Assembly: GCA_900471925.1 (NCBI GenBank)
Contig: UCGV01000025.1
Span: forward strand, 1 to 64,000
Source: Hyphomicrobiales bacterium
GTDB lineage: Bacteria; Pseudomonadota; Alphaproteobacteria; Rhizobiales; Rhizobiaceae
Direction: 5' to 3'
DNA length: 64,000 nt
Shown here piece by piece: positions 1,524-54,468 of this stretch. The notes beneath the pieces were generated by a model. It was given only the letters and a program-made list of their open reading frames with translations, made no database searches and was not told the DNA's origin. The stretch's first letter is position 1, and each line of letters starts with the position of its first letter. Position numbers and translations under genes: made by a program.

Positions 1524-2035
1524 AGTCAAAAGTCCTAAATTAGGGTTTTAAAGTAAAAGACGAGGTATGCAGAAGATTTGACTAAGTAAAAAACACCCGA
1601 ACCTGAACCGAAGCTTGCGCGCCCGATAGTCGCCAAAGAAACGAGCGAAGATGCTGCCGACCGGCTCGCCGCCTGTCGAAGCCGGCTGCTTCAGCATCCA
1701 TCTCGATGCGTCAGGGAAGAAGTTTGACTATGTGATTGATCGCACTGGGGTGGTGCGTATTGTGCAGGCGGTGTGAACGCCAACCTGACATGCGAAACGC
1801 CCCCGCCATCCGGCCCTGATGAAAACATGGCCTTGATGAAAATCGCCGCACGGCGGGAGCGCAGGAGCGCAAGCATCAGCCACCGACACCTGCGCGACGG
1901 GACTACCTGCCCTGACCGAGTACACCCAAAGCCTGCTCGGCAACCAGACTCTGGATGCTGCAACGAAATTGACCGCCGGGAGGTTGAGGGGGCTCGTGGC
2001 TCGAGCCCACCCGTTATCTCACCCGGCGCGGCCCA
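1524..2035. other. Intergenic region with a possible 41-codon remnant
   Basis: This stretch separates the autotransporter start from the 3' end of the M20 hydrolase. No convincing full gene is present. A short plus-strand frame at 1651-1776 starts with ATG, ends in GKKFDYVIDRTGVVRIVQAV and a TGA, and has protein-like composition. It lacks a clear ribosome binding site and I do not recognise it. It may be the tail of a decayed gene. Confidence 0.35.
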
Positions 2036-3199
2036 TCACTTCCCCCCGAGCTCCTGCCCGACCAGCGACATCCAGTAGCGCACCCCATGCGCAATGGCCT
2101 TGTCGTTGAAATCATAGGCCGGATGATGCAGGCCGGCGCTGTCGCCATTACCGATGAGGATCATCGCGCCCGGCCGCTTTTCCAGCATGTAGGAGAAATC
2201 CTCCGCCCCCATCGATTGCTCGTATTTCGCATCCACCTGGGCCTCGCCCGCCACCCGGGACGCCGCCGCGACGATCGCCTCTGTCCTGGTCGGATCGTTG
2301 CGGGTCACCGGATAGCCCGGCCGCCAGTCGATCTCGGCGTTCGTCTCGAAGAGCTTCGCCGTGCCATGCACGATCTCGCGGAAGCGCTGCTCGACGGCCT
2401 TCCTCGTATCCGCCTGCATGGTGCGGATCGTGCCGCCGAGGCGCACCGAGGCGGGGATGACGTTCAGCGCCTTGTCGTTGCCGGCTTCCGTGAAGGTGAC
2501 AGAGACGACGACGGGATCGAAGGGATCGGTGAAGCGCGAGGCGATCGATTGCAGGGCGGTGACCATATGGGCGCTGACGAGCACCGGATCGCGCGTCATC
2601 TGGGGTGCCGCCGCATGGCCGCCCTTGCCCTCGATGGTGATGACGAAACGGTCTGCACCCGCCATGAACGGGCCGGCGCGCGTGCCGAAGGAGCCGATCT
2701 CCAGGCCCGGCTCGTTATGCATGCCATAGACCTCGTCGATGCCGAAAGTCTCCAGCAGCCCCTCTTCGATCATCACCCGCGCCCCGCCGCCGCCTTCTTC
2801 GGCCGGCTGGAACACCAGCACCACCTTGCCGGCAAAATCCCGGTTTTCGACAAGGCATTTGGCAGTGGCAAGCAGCATGGCGGTGTGCCCGTCATGGCCG
2901 CACGCATGCATGCGGTTGGCGTTCTTGGAGGCATAGGGAAGATTGGTCTGTTCCGACATCGGCAGCGCATCCATGTCGCAGCGCAGCGCGATCGTCTTGC
3001 CGGGGCCTCTCGTACCCTCGATCACGGCGACGATGCCGGTCCTGGCAAGCCCGGTCGTCACGTTCTCGCAGCCGAATTCCGCCAGCTTGCCGGCCACATA
3101 GGCCGCCGTTTCCGGCAGGTCGAACAGAAGCTCCGGGTTCTGATGGATATGCCGGCGCCAGCCCTTGGCCTCCTCGGCAATGGCTTCGATATCGGTCAT
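2036..3199 (-). CDS. M20 family amidohydrolase (hippurate/amino-acid amidohydrolase type)
   Basis: This 387-residue protein, full length for the M20D amidohydrolases, probably removes an acyl group from an N-acyl amino acid or a similar amide in the cytoplasm. Metal-binding motifs are visible: RCDMDALP at 73-80, HACGHDGH at 98-105, the general-base region QPAEEGGGG at 131-139, GMHNEPG near 160, and a late GLHHPAYDFND. The dimerisation (lid) domain occupies roughly residues 180-290. The ATG at 3199 is preceded by a GAGGAT-like Shine-Dalgarno. The gene stands alone, so the substrate cannot be inferred from neighbours. No signal peptide is present. Confidence 0.88.
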   Translation of the reverse strand: MTDIEAIAEEAKGWRRHIHQNPELLFDLPETAAYVAGKLAEFGCENVTTGLARTGIVAVIEGTRGPGKTIALRCDMDALPMSEQTNLPYASKNANRMHACGHDGHTAMLLATAKCLVENRDFAGKVVLVFQPAEEGGGGARVMIEEGLLETFGIDEVYGMHNEPGLEIGSFGTRAGPFMAGADRFVITIEGKGGHAAAPQMTRDPVLVSAHMVTALQSIASRFTDPFDPVVVSVTFTEAGNDKALNVIPASVRLGGTIRTMQADTRKAVEQRFREIVHGTAKLFETNAEIDWRPGYPVTRNDPTRTEAIVAAASRVAGEAQVDAKYEQSMGAEDFSYMLEKRPGAMILIGNGDSAGLHHPAYDFNDKAIAHGVRYWMSLVGQELGGK

Positions 3200-36219: not shown

Positions 36220-38139
36220 GTGCGCTGGTCCAAACCGTTAAGACTGCATCTCGGCGTGCTCGTCGTGGCTTCGCTGCTCTGCACCACGACGCCGATCATT
36301 CTCCTGGCATTCTGGCACGGCAGCCAGGCGGCCGTGGGTGCGGGCGCGCAGCAGATGCGCGAGATGAGCCTGCGGCTGATCGAGACCTATCGCAACACGC
36401 TGGAAGGTGGCATGGAGGCGGTGTCGCTGGCCTCTTCCCTGCCCCAGCTCGCCTCGCCGCCACAGCAGGAGGCTGGCGCCAAGCAGCAGTTCCTGCTGCA
36501 GGTGCTGCGCAATGTGCCGAATGCCACCAGCATCTATACCGGCTATCCCGATGGCTCCTACCTGCAGGTCATCAATACCTCGAGGCGCGATATCCGCCAG
36601 ACGCTGGCCGCCCCCGAAGGCACCGCCTTCGCAATCCGCACCACCGCCCGCGGCCAGGGTGGCGAGTCTCTTTCGACGCTGCTCTTCCTCGATGCCGGCG
36701 CCAAAGATATCGGCAAGCGTGAACTCGAATCCGTCGCCTTCGATCCGCGCGAGCGCCCCTGGTATCAGGCCGTCATGCAGGATGGCGTGCCGGTCTCCGT
36801 CGGCCCCTATATCGCCGGCACCCTGAATGTGCCGACGCTGACGATCGCCGCCCCGATGCGGGATGCGCCGGGCGTGGTCGTCGGCATCAACATCCACTTG
36901 CAGACGGTGAGCCGGCTTCTCGACGCCAGCCCGATTTCGCCCCGCGCCCGCGCCTTCATCATCGATTCCAGCGGCGATCTCGTCGCCCATTCCGACCCCG
37001 CCGTGATGGAGAGGATCATGGCGCTCTGGGCGCGCAATGCGGGCGCAATCGGCGCCACGGCAAACAGCTTCGATAGCGGCCTCGAGACGGTGGAACGGCT
37101 GCGCACCGACCCGACCTTTGCCGAAGGCGGGCTGGCGCGTCTCAATGTCGATGGCGAGATACAACTGGTGCAGATCGCCCCGGTCACCGTCTCCGGCCTG
37201 TTCCAGGGCAGCACGGCGGCCATCATCGTGCCGATGCAGGATCTGGTGGCGCAGGCCGACCGCCTGCTCCTGCACAACCTGCTGATCGCCGCAGGCTTCG
37301 TGCTGGCCGGTGTCGCGGCCTCCGTCCTCCTGTCGCGCATCGTCAGCCGCTCGCTGAACCGGCTGGCCGAGGAAGCGCGCCGGATCGGCGATCTCGATAT
37401 CGGCGAAAAACCCGTCAGCCATTCCTTCATCACCGAGATCAACACGCTGGCCAATGCGCTGGCCGCCAGCCGCCACGCCATCGCCCAGTTCGCCCTCTAC
37501 GTGCCACGCGAGGTCGTGCGCCGCATCGTCGATCCCAGAGCCCGCACGGTGATGAAGGCCAGGCGCCAGGAAGTAACGGTGCTTTTCACCGACATCAGGG
37601 ATTTCACCACCATCTCCGAACAGCACTCGCCCGAAGAGGTGGTGGATACGCTCTCGGCCTATTTCGAGCAGCTGAACACCATCGCCGAAGACCATGGCGG
37701 CACGGTCGTTCAATATCTGGGGGACTCCATCTTCGTCATGTGGAATGCTCCTGTCGAAGATGAGAAACATGCCGAAAACGGCTGCCGTTGCGCACTCGCC
37801 ATGAAGGCCGCCATCGATGCGCTGAACGCGGAAAATGCCGAAAGCCGCCGCCCCGAACTTATCACCCGCTTCGGCCTGCACACCGGCCCCGCAGTCGTCG
37901 GCAGTTTCGGGGCGATCTCGCGCCAGCAATATACGGCCATGGGCGACACGATCAACGTCGCCTCCCGCCTCGAAGGGCTAAACAAGGAATTCGGCACCTC
38001 GATCCTCGTCAGCGCCGCCGTGCGTGATGCTGTGGGCGAGCGTTTTGCGCTACGCTCGCTCGGGCTTGTTCAGGTCAAGGGCCGTGCCGAGAAGGTGGAT
38101 ATCTGGGAGCTGGTGGGGGATTCAGGCGAGAGTCAGTAG
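36220..38139 (+). CDS. Transmembrane class III adenylate/guanylate cyclase with Cache and HAMP domains
   Basis: A GTG at 36220, preceded by GGGGGGAAAAGGC, gives 639 residues. An N-terminal membrane anchor (about 9-31) is followed by a periplasmic double-Cache-like sensor to about 340 (ending before PMQDLVAQADRLLL), a second membrane helix (345-368), a HAMP linker and a catalytic domain from about 445. Catalytic motifs are VLFTDIRDFTT with the first metal aspartate, QYLGDSIFVMW with the second, FGLHTGPAVVGSFGA, and AMGDTINVASRLEGLN with the transition-state Asn and Arg. It should convert an external small-molecule signal into cAMP. Confidence 0.9.
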   Translation: MRWSKPLRLHLGVLVVASLLCTTTPIILLAFWHGSQAAVGAGAQQMREMSLRLIETYRNTLEGGMEAVSLASSLPQLASPPQQEAGAKQQFLLQVLRNVPNATSIYTGYPDGSYLQVINTSRRDIRQTLAAPEGTAFAIRTTARGQGGESLSTLLFLDAGAKDIGKRELESVAFDPRERPWYQAVMQDGVPVSVGPYIAGTLNVPTLTIAAPMRDAPGVVVGINIHLQTVSRLLDASPISPRARAFIIDSSGDLVAHSDPAVMERIMALWARNAGAIGATANSFDSGLETVERLRTDPTFAEGGLARLNVDGEIQLVQIAPVTVSGLFQGSTAAIIVPMQDLVAQADRLLLHNLLIAAGFVLAGVAASVLLSRIVSRSLNRLAEEARRIGDLDIGEKPVSHSFITEINTLANALAASRHAIAQFALYVPREVVRRIVDPRARTVMKARRQEVTVLFTDIRDFTTISEQHSPEEVVDTLSAYFEQLNTIAEDHGGTVVQYLGDSIFVMWNAPVEDEKHAENGCRCALAMKAAIDALNAENAESRRPELITRFGLHTGPAVVGSFGAISRQQYTAMGDTINVASRLEGLNKEFGTSILVSAAVRDAVGERFALRSLGLVQVKGRAEKVDIWELVGDSGESQ

Positions 38140-38199
38140 CGGCTTTCGCGTTCTATATTGCCTCTGAAAAGCAGTTCAAGCGATAGACGAGGTCGCACA

Positions 38200-38625
38200 T
38201 CAACGCTGTGCCAGCGGCACACGCCCCTTCATCATCGTTTCATAAAGCTTGGCTTTGATCTTCTCGTAGAATTCCTGAGGGATCATGCCGTAATCGTACC
38301 GGTTCGGATCCGAAGGCAGCGTGCGAAGGTGTATGCCCGGCCACTGAAACCTGTTGGCTTCGCTCAGGCGAACCCAGTTTGTGGCGTCATCCAGACCGAG
38401 TTGGCCACAGAGCTCCCTTGGAACCTCGATAGACAGATCTTCCTCACCCAATTCCGGCGGAGAATGCGTGATCGGCACGACGATCGTGTCGCCCGTCTTC
38501 GAATGATAGAGAACGATAGCACAAGGCCTGTCCTTGCTGCCCACGGACGCGCCTTCGTTTTTCTCCTTATCCCACAGGTAATTATATCGGACGACGAGGC
38601 CCGGAACGGGACTTGGATAGTTCAC
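38200..38625 (-). CDS. PemK/MazF-like toxin
   Basis: This 141-residue protein shows an SH3-barrel-like pattern (PGLVVRYNYLWDKE, KDRPCAIVLYHSKTGDTIVV, PITHSPPE) as in PemK/MazF endoribonucleases. It also has a C-terminal helix ending YEKIKAKLYETMMKG. It follows the Phd-like antitoxin gene with a 4-bp overlap, the standard antitoxin-first order. Sequence match to the classic MazF active site is partial, so the RNase activity is an inference. GC content is lower than in nearby genes. Confidence 0.6.
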   Translation of the reverse strand: MNYPSPVPGLVVRYNYLWDKEKNEGASVGSKDRPCAIVLYHSKTGDTIVVPITHSPPELGEEDLSIEVPRELCGQLGLDDATNWVRLSEANRFQWPGIHLRTLPSDPNRYDYGMIPQEFYEKIKAKLYETMMKGRVPLAQR

Positions 38626-38876
38626 TCGGAGGCTTTGCCATATTCAGCGCCCATGATCAGCGCCATGGTTTCGTCATCCATTTCGCTGACCTTGATGACT
38701 TCCCGTTCTCGCTTTTTCATGTCCTTGTAGTGCTCAAGTTCGGCAGCAGACAGGAAAGCACCAATCGTCCGGTTATGAGCTGTGACCTCGATCACGCCCT
38801 CCGTCTGCACCTGTTCGCGGAATGTCGTAAATTTGCGCGCAAATTCGGTCGCTGGAACTTTTAAAGCTTGAGCCAT
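38622..38876 (-). CDS. Phd/YefM-like antitoxin
   Basis: This 84-residue protein has AAGGAG upstream of the ATG at 38876. It starts MAQALKVPATEFARKFTTFR and contains EGVIEVTAHNRTIGAFLSAAE, the strand-helix pattern of Phd/YefM DNA-binding domains. An acidic toxin-wrapping tail follows. It overlaps the toxin gene (ATGA) and sits behind a clear operator at 38892-38915. It would neutralise the toxin and autoregulate the pair. Confidence 0.72.
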   Translation of the reverse strand: MAQALKVPATEFARKFTTFREQVQTEGVIEVTAHNRTIGAFLSAAELEHYKDMKKREREVIKVSEMDDETMALIMGAEYGKASE

Positions 38877-38891
38877 GATCAGTCTCCTTTT

Positions 38892-38915
38892 TGTGTAAAA
38901 TACGAATTTTACACA
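38892..38915. promoter_or_regulatory. TGTGTAAAA-N6-TTTTACACA operator
   Basis: A perfect 9-bp inverted repeat with a 6-bp spacer (TACGAA) lies 15 bp upstream of the Phd-like start codon. Its AT-rich core probably also contains the promoter -10. Autorepression by the antitoxin complex is the expected use. Confidence 0.78.
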
Positions 38916-39003
38916 TTTTGGTCAAGTCTGATCGGGTACGTTGCCCACTCCTGTGTCGGCGGGGGGATCATAGGTCCGAGGCAATGAAGCGATCATGGCA
39001 CGA

Positions 39004-39651
39004 TCAATACATCGACTTCCCATATTCCACTTCCAGCGCAGCATCGATCCTGCGCATCTCCTCGCCCTCGGGCGCACCCGTCGTCTGGTCGAGGATGATC
39101 TTCGACAGCGACGGCATCTCGCTGCGGTCCTGGAAATGCGCGGGGTCCCAGAGATGCGAGCGGCGGAAGGCCTTGGCGCAATGCAGGAAGACCTCGTGCA
39201 CGCGCACGATGATCGCAAGCTTCGGCAGGCGGTCCGCCACACGCATGCCCTCCAGAATGGCGGGATCGGTCGTGAGCGTGGCATGGCCGTTGACGCGCAG
39301 CGTGTCGTCGAAGCCGGGTATGATGAACAGGAGCCCGACATTGGGGTTGGAGACGATGTTGCTGAGGCTGTCCAGCCGGTTATTGCCCGGCCGGTCGGGT
39401 ATCGCCAGCGTGTGCCGGTCGAGGATCGTCACGAAACCGACGGGATCGCCGCGCGGGCTGACATCGGCCTTTCCCTCGGCATTCTGCGTGCCGAGACAGA
39501 GAAAGGGCGAGCGGCGGATGAACGTCTGCGCGTGCTCGTCGAGCGCATCGAGACATTTCATCGTCGCGATCGCGTGGGTTGGCGCAAACAGGCCCCGAAG
39601 CGCCTCTTCATCGGCAATCGCATAGTCGCTGTTGATTGTGAACTCGCCCAT
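39004..39651 (-). CDS. FMN-dependent pyridoxamine-phosphate-oxidase-like protein
   Basis: The ATG at 39651 (MGEFTINSDYAI) gives 215 residues. The split-barrel flavin fold is indicated by RRSPFLCLGTQNAEGKADVS, PRGDPVGFVTILD, IPDRPGNNRLDSLSNIVSNP and GLLFIIPG. This arrangement belongs to the family that includes the PPOX-type proteins related to MSMEG_1061, often F420- or FMN-dependent reductases of unknown substrate. A paired TACGTAC direct repeat lies about 50-75 bp upstream (39698-39724). No operon partner is evident. Confidence 0.82.
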   Translation of the reverse strand: MGEFTINSDYAIADEEALRGLFAPTHAIATMKCLDALDEHAQTFIRRSPFLCLGTQNAEGKADVSPRGDPVGFVTILDRHTLAIPDRPGNNRLDSLSNIVSNPNVGLLFIIPGFDDTLRVNGHATLTTDPAILEGMRVADRLPKLAIIVRVHEVFLHCAKAFRRSHLWDPAHFQDRSEMPSLSKIILDQTTGAPEGEEMRRIDAALEVEYGKSMY

Positions 39652-53171: not shown

Positions 53172-54293
53172 TTATGGCGCCAAATTGTGTGGCCCTTTTT
53201 TGTGTCGCATCAACTCCGGCCGAATAGCTGACCAACATGCTCGCAGCTTCTCGAGATGTGCGTCAACCTCGTCCGACAGGGTTTGTTTCAGCATGTTCAT
53301 CTTCGGAACGAATTGCCCGGGATCGTCAAACCACAGCCCAATAGCCTTAATCCCAAACTCCTCCGAACCTTCCATTTCTACAGCCCCCAGAAACATATTG
53401 CGGCCCTCGCCGAACAATATTTCGGCCTCAACGAAACCCTTGAGGCAGGCACTCTCACACTGAGAAATTTCGTCTTCGGAGAGGCCTTCAGTCAACGAAA
53501 GAATAGTAACCATCAAGGCTAGGATTGCCGTGCATCGAACGACTGCGGGTGGATGCGATCTCTCCCAGACGTTGTCCGGAATCGGGTCTTCTCCCTCCGT
53601 TATCAAGAAATATGATGCGATCGCGCGGCCCAACACTTGCGCCTCGCCGAGCATCTTTTCTACTGGGAGGTGCGGGGTGTAAACCTGCCCGGTTCCGCTG
53701 CGCCCTTGGGTTAGACCCAGAGCCTCTCGTATAGTAAAATTGAATGCGCCAGCGTCAGCATCATACTCCAGCGTCTGCGAAATTACGGACCAGTCGTTGT
53801 CCACCGGCCCCACGGCCTCCGCCATCGACGCGCCCCTTCCTTTTTCCGTTTTGAAATCCACATGTCCGTTCCGGATGTGCGTCACTTCGTGCATGAAGAC
53901 AAAGAGAATAATCCATCTGGCATATTGCATTATGTTTAGATGGTCTTCATTCGCGGGCGGAAGGTCCGTCGTGAGTTTTGTCGCCACGAGTACGGAAGTA
54001 CTTACAAGGCCCTGAAGAATGCCGATGTGATAATTTTCGCCATACTTACCTACGACGGCATTGAAAGCTCGCCTGTCAAGGACGTGCGCCTCAACTGGAG
54101 GCGCAACAGACCCGCGCTCGGTCAAGAGCATTTCCATGCTTTTTTCCGCCCACGTCATAAACCACAACTCTTTGTCGTCTTCCAAGGCATAGTATAGGCC
54201 ACCCAACCTATCACGCGTCGCGACAGCCCATAACGAATAGGACTCCGATACCGGGGGCCACATATGGAGCGCTTTTAATTCCTCGGATTTCAT
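53172..54293 (-). CDS. HExxH metalloprotease-like protein of low-GC origin
   Basis: The ATG at 54293 (MKSEELKALHMW) follows GGAG in ACGGAGCACGCC; a TTG at 54311 is an alternative. In 373 residues, FVFMHEVTHIRNGH has the zinc motif H135-E-x-x-H139. EYDADAGAF (E176, D180) could supply the third ligand. Hydrophobic stretches near 85-105, 125-134 and 250-270 are weak membrane candidates. I do not recognise the family. The gene is isolated and visibly poorer in GC than everything around it. A defence- or conflict-related role is possible but unproven. Confidence 0.6.
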   Translation of the reverse strand: MKSEELKALHMWPPVSESYSLWAVATRDRLGGLYYALEDDKELWFMTWAEKSMEMLLTERGSVAPPVEAHVLDRRAFNAVVGKYGENYHIGILQGLVSTSVLVATKLTTDLPPANEDHLNIMQYARWIILFVFMHEVTHIRNGHVDFKTEKGRGASMAEAVGPVDNDWSVISQTLEYDADAGAFNFTIREALGLTQGRSGTGQVYTPHLPVEKMLGEAQVLGRAIASYFLITEGEDPIPDNVWERSHPPAVVRCTAILALMVTILSLTEGLSEDEISQCESACLKGFVEAEILFGEGRNMFLGAVEMEGSEEFGIKAIGLWFDDPGQFVPKMNMLKQTLSDEVDAHLEKLRACWSAIRPELMRHKKGPHNLAP

Positions 54294-54468
54294 GGCGTGC
54301 TCCGTAAACAATGCGGAGTTGAATCGGCTGAATAATCTTAGCGCATTCAGGGCAGAGCCGTTAGTACTCGCCCCAACAAAACAACTGCAGCTTTTGCGCG
54401 ATCTGCTTTAGCCTGCACCGCGATTCGATTGCATATTTCATTGCCAGTTTCAGCCGGTCCCGGACAAA

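Follow-up and report, generated by a model that had tools for sequence, protein, structure and literature searches.

The locus raises the question of what a lone gene of foreign composition, encoding a protein with an HExxH motif, does in its host, and whether it is cargo of the defense or mobile-element kind, as the initial annotation supposed.

An intact low-GC gene with a complete motif set

The gene product, P0001, is encoded on the minus strand of the window (the whole 64,000-nucleotide stretch analyzed) by an intact frame of 373 codons that runs from an ATG at 54293 to a stop codon at 53174-53172, with a TTG at 54311 as a possible alternative start (Table 1). The GC content of the gene is 53.0% versus 62.5% for the window. 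The mean for stretches of the same length within the window is 62.4% (sd 2.7), and every such stretch sampled outside the gene lies above the value of the gene. GC at third codon positions is 60% versus 71-80% in the eight neighboring ORFs measured, and the low-GC signature first reported for this gene is thereby confirmed. A second low-GC stretch (about 55%) lies at 37901-39270 of the window.

Table 1 Features of the P0001 gene, its neighborhood and upstream partners of its relatives
Feature	Position	Strand or placement	Basis
Lit/M48-like zinc peptidase gene (P0001, 373 aa)	53172..54293	minus	ORF call, Pfam, predicted structure
GGAG ribosome-binding site	54300..54303	minus	6 nt before the P0001 ATG, by eye
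HEVTH, residues 135-139: two predicted zinc ligands and predicted catalytic Glu136	53877..53891	minus	motif
EYDAD, residues 176-180 (ExxAD): predicted third zinc ligand Glu176	53754..53768	minus	motif
HPPAVVR, residues 247-253: HPx4R active-site plug motif	53535..53555	minus	motif search
NAVV...IGILQG, residues 78-95: M48-type NAxA/IxVxxG strand segment	54009..54062	minus	profile alignment, motif search
C-terminal helix with W354 and L361, invariant in a 9-row alignment	53211..53234	minus	alignment; helix 341-362 in the model
Truncated higA-like antitoxin remnant, 65 aa	52860..53057	minus	DNA matches in six relatives
HNH-like zinc protein ORFs	L032:6606-7385, L045:2867-3898, L080:5477-6193	directly upstream of members	regular expression

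The closest relative, found in genome G570, is 53% identical to P0001 and lacks the C-terminus; frame and motifs are both preserved. Over 295 codons the two genes differ at 98, 77 and 190 first, second and third codon positions, respectively, with a dN of 0.38 and a dS that was not computable and is taken as saturated. The substitution pattern is purifying, and the ORF is more than a chance reading frame. A transposase-like ORF was seen by eye near the G570 member. That P0001 is instead a decaying remnant without function, as its position beside a truncated higA-like gene and the several fragmentary or short relatives (L034, L037, L039, the split L032 and a shortened copy in L030) might suggest, seems highly improbable given a full-length ORF with all motifs intact, a ribosome-binding site and purifying substitutions. 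Judged by its sequence, the gene is real, intact, selected and foreign-looking, and its predicted product is a zinc peptidase.

HEVTHIRNGH begins at residue 135 and EYDADAGA at residue 176, and therefore E136 is the predicted catalytic glutamate. P0001 fits the M48 pattern H-E-x-x-H-x(30,140)-H-P-x(4)-R, having a glutamate as third ligand and 107 residues between the two conserved blocks. In the sections available of a study of the M48 peptidase BepA, HPx4R is described as an M48-wide active-site plug, its histidine occupying the fourth zinc position, and the phage-exclusion protease Lit is said to fit the same pattern (PMC7950410). The motif set is complete in P0001. For the family as a whole we counted 31 members (P0001, 17 from genomes, one from a plasmid and 12 from IMG/VR), leaving out the fragments L034, L037 and L039 and the second piece of L032 and keeping four incomplete copies (L043 and L095 at the N-terminus, those of G570 and L032 at the C-terminus). 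HExxHxxxxH and ExxAD are each present in 31/31. The plug motif is more variable: 21 members (including P0001) have strict HPx4R, seven have YPx4R and two have the looser HVx4R or YLx4R; in one it was not found. Since strict HPx4R is missing in 10/31 members, a single plug-latency mechanism cannot hold family-wide. A loose search found the NAxA/IxVxxG segment in 15 of the 31, P0001 among them. The motifs support the reading of P0001 as a zinc peptidase. By eye, no transmembrane or signal segment and no TPR region was evident in the protein.

Family assignment by profile and predicted fold

Pfam Peptidase_M48 (PF01435) matches P0001 with 25.2 bits (curated cut-off 20.3; E 1.6e-5), although only profile positions 8-94 of 186 are aligned, and the earlier statement that the protein outside its zinc motifs matches no family must be given up. 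The match, which falls in no housekeeping subfamily, is weak: among the matches listed, 40 of 52 M48 matches score at least 100 bits versus 25 for P0001. When the genome that carries P0001 was searched as a whole with PF01435, two other M48 genes were matched, one of them HtpX-like, and P0001 was not among the matches at E<=0.001. Of 19 family members, seven touch Pfam M48 and three touch Pfam U49 (PF10463), the latter weakly (best 0.032), at E<=0.1; M78 is absent from the families listed for these members at that threshold. P0001 itself gave no match at E<=10 to PF10463, to PF06114 (M78, ImmA/IrrE) or to any of the 5027 PADLOC 2.0.0 defense models, the Lit model included, and none of the PHROG and NCBIfam models matched it. 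Among 22 members the PADLOC Lit model matches six (best E 1.7e-5), PHROG 1914 (without a named function) four and PHROG 87 (metallo-protease) one. PF10463 gave four matches over 100 relatives, two of them over the cut-off and none in the own genome; its zero matches over 200 phylum genomes are uninformative, as the control also matched nowhere.

By BLASTP P0001 and Lit are not significantly similar (E 0.24). Profile comparison was more telling. In hhalign the 22-row family alignment scored 74.8 against six Lit-family proteins (probability 96.5, E 7.7e-10), the alignment of 105 columns running from HExxH to HPx4R and thus covering the catalytic region only; the reversed control gave 0.3 and five column shuffles at most 0.4. 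An M48 profile of 20 rows scored 69.3 (six-row M48 samples, 38.9-62.7), and an M78 profile of 13 rows scored 48.5 (six-row samples, 40.0-43.8). Note that the M78 set comprised 13 of 18 loci, the five without an ORF having the HExxH/N pattern (including the M78 match of the own genome) having been dropped. A narrower eight-row family alignment kept the order, with scores of 59.4 for Lit, 54.6 for M48 and 41.3 for M78. Alignment covers the N-terminal strand segment of the family with the 20-row M48 profile and the catalytic half with the Lit profile, and the M78 profile leaves the HPx4R region unaligned. With single sequences the hhalign probabilities were 75.5 for Lit, 70.7 for one M78-like protein and 15.5 for HtpX; these values for Lit and the M78-like protein are close, and it is the profiles that favor Lit. 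By profile the family is nearest to Lit, ahead of M48 and then M78, and the best reading of these sequence comparisons is that P0001 represents a divergent Lit-like branch of the M48-type peptidases. A phmmer match in the PDB to a putative 2,5-diketo-D-gluconic acid reductase (E 0.049) and weak PDB profile matches of the family alignment (best HtpX 3cqb, E 0.19) were not taken as evidence by themselves.

An AlphaFold2 model of P0001, made with 12 IMG/VR relatives, had a mean pLDDT of 71.5 and a pTM of 0.78; nearly all of residues 1-42 and residues 298-330 were poorly predicted. The structure searches were divided. Foldseek against the PDB gave no match at E<=0.001, whereas the best five VIA-align rows were all M48-type peptidases with Z scores of 8.4-9.9: BepA 6ait (Z 9.9, 178 aligned, 4.2 A), 3c37 (Z 9.9, 164 aligned, 3.3 A), which we take to be an M48 peptidase structure, ZMPSTE24 4aw6 and 6bh8 (each Z 8.8) and BepA 6sar (Z 8.4). 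The following rows were a DPP III (Z 7.9), Ste24p (Z 7.8) and a designed helical protein (Z 7.7). By the note of the tool, mostly helical models can reach Z 14 without a clear match; the margin of the M48-type rows over noise is modest. No Lit structure was among the VIA-align rows. A comparison with predicted viral proteins gave a single strong match, to A0A8S5NTQ9 of Myoviridae sp. cte5Z19 (E 2e-11). The model lends moderate support to an M48-like fold and, together with the M48/Lit motif set, agrees with the original proposal that HEVTHIRNGH and EYDADAGA mark a zinc peptidase.

The HExxH...E layout is shared with the ImmA/IrrE peptidases, and P0001 could be a regulatory peptidase of that kind, which upon damage would cleave a repressor and control excision or expression of its element rather than exclude phages. 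The probability of 70.7 for the single M78-like sequence, the phage-repressor-like ORFs seen by eye near the members in L032, L080 and L082 and the M78-like gene that adjoins the L038 member would all fit. However, the M78 profile falls behind both Lit and the full M48 profile and fails to align the plug region, M78 is missing from the families listed for the 19 members and a constant repressor partner was not seen; we consider this reading unlikely. From the profile comparisons and the M48 searches of genomes, both it and a housekeeping M48 role (discussed below) were ranked below a Lit-like defense function.

Distribution and genomic context of the family

With P0001 as query, 100 genomes gave two relatives besides itself (29-33% identity), 385 genomes of the class gave one and plasmids gave one match. 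A five-row profile matched 13 of 148 genus genomes (the own genome and two already in the profile included) and 6 of 398 phylum genomes (again including the own), and three alignment scans of IMG/VR gave 12 members on 11 distinct contigs. The family is present across several families of one phylum, on IMG/VR contigs and in E. coli; its distribution is patchy. Protein scans of genome contigs with P0001 and with a two-row alignment (the latter using poor N-terminal patterns) gave no relatives, nor did searches of IMG/VR contigs with P0001 alone and with one further family alignment give members. In tblastn against 50,697 phage records P0001, P0002 and the L080 protein found nothing, although IMG/VR contigs do hold members, and Lit itself also found nothing in the same records.

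Low GC is a property of the family. In 31/31 members the gene lies below its flanks (mean difference -0.095), 26 rank in the lowest tenth of stretches of the same length and 17 lie below every such stretch; with one genome examined per species, no relative of normal GC was encountered. Of the two results that the initial annotation would have taken as refuting, a good match to a housekeeping peptidase family and normal GC across related strains, neither was seen. An ordinary M48 housekeeping or quality-control peptidase gained by transfer would account for the Pfam match over the cut-off and the M48-like predicted fold. Yet the family is found in only 13/148 genus genomes versus 13/13 phylum genomes sampled (own included) for PF01435, the own genome holds two M48 genes besides P0001, low GC holds for 31/31 members and no membrane or signal segment is evident by eye, and we judge this explanation very unlikely.

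By eye, many members have phage-like neighbors (genes resembling those for terminase, portal, tail, endolysin, repressor or integrase); L081, L080, L082, L083, L084, L085, L031, L047 and L099 are examples rather than a formal count. No phage gene was seen in the neighborhood read around the L048 member. In L037 (6292-7845) a phage terminase-like frame appears, by eye, to run into the C-terminal remnant of a family member, and in L083 (6366-8630) two members lie in tandem on one IMG/VR phage-like contig of 39% GC.

The E. coli homolog WP_047668714.1 is distant from P0001 (23% identity over 56%), and by megablast 2 of 5426 E. coli genomes carry its gene. In a P2-like prophage of strain CE0011b the gene is placed between those for tail-fiber assembly and the tail sheath, preceded by IS2 and followed by four further genes, about 4 kb and four genes ahead of the sheath gene. 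In the P2 record the sheath gene FI is preceded by fun(Z), which is on the opposite strand and blocks T5. In strain NB4833 the same gene cluster, viewed over 18.9 kb, is accompanied by IS elements and HTH regulators and by no P2 structural gene. A copy is also on a conjugative IncFIB plasmid carrying the NDM-4 carbapenemase (L005, NZ_CP050167.1), together with betT, DUF2254 and an HNH-like gene; the member and its downstream genes are thus present on this plasmid and in the two E. coli chromosomes. The relatives' contexts are mobile, and the phage or island setting of many of them supports carriage of the family as mobile cargo; together with the low GC and the patchy spread it bears out the earlier view of the gene as foreign cargo.

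Such cargo need not kill its host. In superinfection exclusion or lysogenic conversion without suicide the peptidase would cut a protein of the incoming phage and benefit the resident prophage only, and prophage placement, low GC and rapid divergence would fit equally well. We think this rather unlikely, as Lit, the nearest characterized relative, acts on host EF-Tu according to the consulted part of PMC3014915 and some copies (for example those of the window and L048) have no phage gene in the neighborhood read.

Among the ten ORFs neighboring P0001 in the window, Pfam identified no phage gene; those recognized encode two proteins of the FAD_binding_3 family, an Esterase_PHB protein, an MFS transporter, a TetR regulator and an AHSA1 protein accompanied by an HTH regulator. 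Searches around the gene revealed neither a tRNA nor a clear flanking repeat, and a 22-nt inverted pair at 53197/54314, only 73% complementary, was treated as chance rather than as an insertion-site repeat. The original description of the gene as isolated was incomplete, since 114 bp beyond its stop codon, on the same strand, lies a remnant that resembles the first half of a HigA-type antitoxin. Its DNA is 72-76% identical to that of six relatives (200-203 bp in five, 140 bp in one); Pfam gave no match. In L103 a 126-aa gene follows a 105-aa HigB-like ORF; the HigA and HigB names, here and in the window, were given by sequence resemblance. No higB-like ORF was seen beside the remnant in the window, where the P0001 gene occupies that side. 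Among the matches listed, those between the flanking DNA and genus relatives are separate pieces of at most about 1.2 kb, in a comparison that scored two of roughly 90-280 first-look candidates per genome. As the flanks match only piecewise, the neighborhood looks mosaic, without proof, and reconstruction of an empty site was dropped for the same reason.

Some relatives have candidate partners. Searching 473.5 kb of loci with a CxxC...H-x-P regular expression gave six HNH-like ORFs, of which five are no more than 3.3 kb from a member and the sixth is next to the fragment L039; as the pattern was chosen after examples had been seen, this count is suggestive only. Three (L032, L045 and L080) lie 56-100 bp directly upstream of the member on the same strand, and the others are those of L005, L030 and L039. 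Pfam, run on five of these ORFs, confirmed L045 as HNH_5 (8.3e-14), gave L005 a value of 0.014 that is below the cut-off and gave no HNH match for three. P0001 is without an HNH-like partner. In L038 (6518-12024) an M78-like peptidase (E 9.7e-4, 19.4 bits, cut-off 22), the family member, a caspase-domain protein (Peptidase_C14, over the cut-off) and an alpha/beta-hydrolase-like protein (below the cut-off) follow one another on one strand, an arrangement that is possibly a protease-rich defense operon. About 0.3 kb upstream of the L102 member is a HEPN-like ORF (1661-3046; RiboL-PSP-HEPN, E 0.0072, below the cut-off).

A proposed function and comparison with known systems

According to the excerpted text of PMC3014915, Lit is a zinc protease of the HExxH type that stays latent until the Gol part of T4 gp23 binds EF-Tu, whereupon it cleaves EF-Tu at Gly59-Ile60. 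Given distant kinship to Lit and the many relatives in prophages, P0001 is probably an uncatalogued phage-defense gene. The defense role first guessed for it has so far gained indirect backing, through the Lit profile and the one distant homolog in the fun(Z) interval; the PADLOC Lit model recovers some of the members and passes over P0001. On balance we lean towards P0001 being a Lit-like zinc endopeptidase of the cytosol that has an M48-type core, travels as mobile (prophage or defense-island) cargo, serves phage exclusion and is kept latent by its plug until a phage signal arrives. Whatever goes beyond a zinc peptidase of mobile origin, namely proteolysis, latency, trigger, substrate and the defense role, we infer. 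In such a protein H135, H139 and E176 would bind zinc and E136 would activate water, with the HPx4R plug (247-253) sitting over the zinc and holding the enzyme latent. A component of the phage, which is the probable source of the trigger, would bind P0001 or its substrate, possibly via the C-terminal helices or the N-terminal segment, which is variable, and displace the plug. Once released, the enzyme would cleave either an essential host protein, in the manner of Lit and EF-Tu, or a protein of the phage, and infection would abort.

More tentatively, and with greater doubt than confidence, the family may consist of uncatalogued single-gene, prophage-borne, plug-latched peptidases that abort infection in response to lineage-specific triggers and on lineage-specific targets, a subset being paired with an upstream HNH-like zinc protein as a protease-nuclease system. 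A literature search on such peptidases in defense, at the level of the titles and abstract openings listed, gave no description of this Lit-like family; in the excerpts seen, PMC9069715 and PMC8844924 have marginal bearing on the topic. Lit is the best-known protease-based phage-exclusion system and few of its relatives have been characterized. If the proposal is true, a divergent Lit-like family would widen the scope of peptidase-based abortive infection and would supply tractable members for finding new triggers and targets.

Three comparison systems share part of these features. The M48 peptidases (HtpX, BepA and Ste24; PF01435) have the motif set including the HPx4R plug, the Pfam match (weak, yet over the cut-off) and, with moderate support, the predicted fold in common with P0001, which in contrast is patchy, low in GC, mobile and, by eye, devoid of their transmembrane or TPR regions. 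The ImmA/IrrE peptidases (M78, PF06114) are likewise HExxH zinc peptidases of phages and mobile elements, and PD-lambda-2 includes one of this type according to the part of PMC9519451 consulted, but their profile scores lower against the family and leaves the HPx4R region out. With the P2 fun(Z) locus only the genomic position is shared, the E. coli homolog occupying the same interval before the tail-sheath gene, whereas fun(Z) is on the opposite strand and directly beside the sheath gene. The passages seen of PMC9519451 place fun in a second defense-enriched P2 locus and those of PMC8594841 report Fun/Z to be active against several phage groups; the excerpt of PMC9122126 concerns a separate P2 hotspot between gpA and gpQ, and the word fun is absent from that excerpt.

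The closest parallel is Lit of the E. coli prophage e14 (PF10463, Peptidase_U49; PADLOC Lit), which the available text of PMC7950410 terms the single member of U49; database records annotate further 'Lit family' proteins. Lit and P0001 differ in that they lack significant pairwise similarity, P0001 falls outside the PF10463 and PADLOC Lit models and, unlike Lit, it has the M48-like NAxA strand segment. They agree in having HExxH, ExxAD and HPx4R in the same order and in being of similar size (297 aa for Lit versus 373 aa), and Lit, whose gene adjoins intE, is likewise the kind of single-gene prophage cargo that many relatives of P0001 appear to be.
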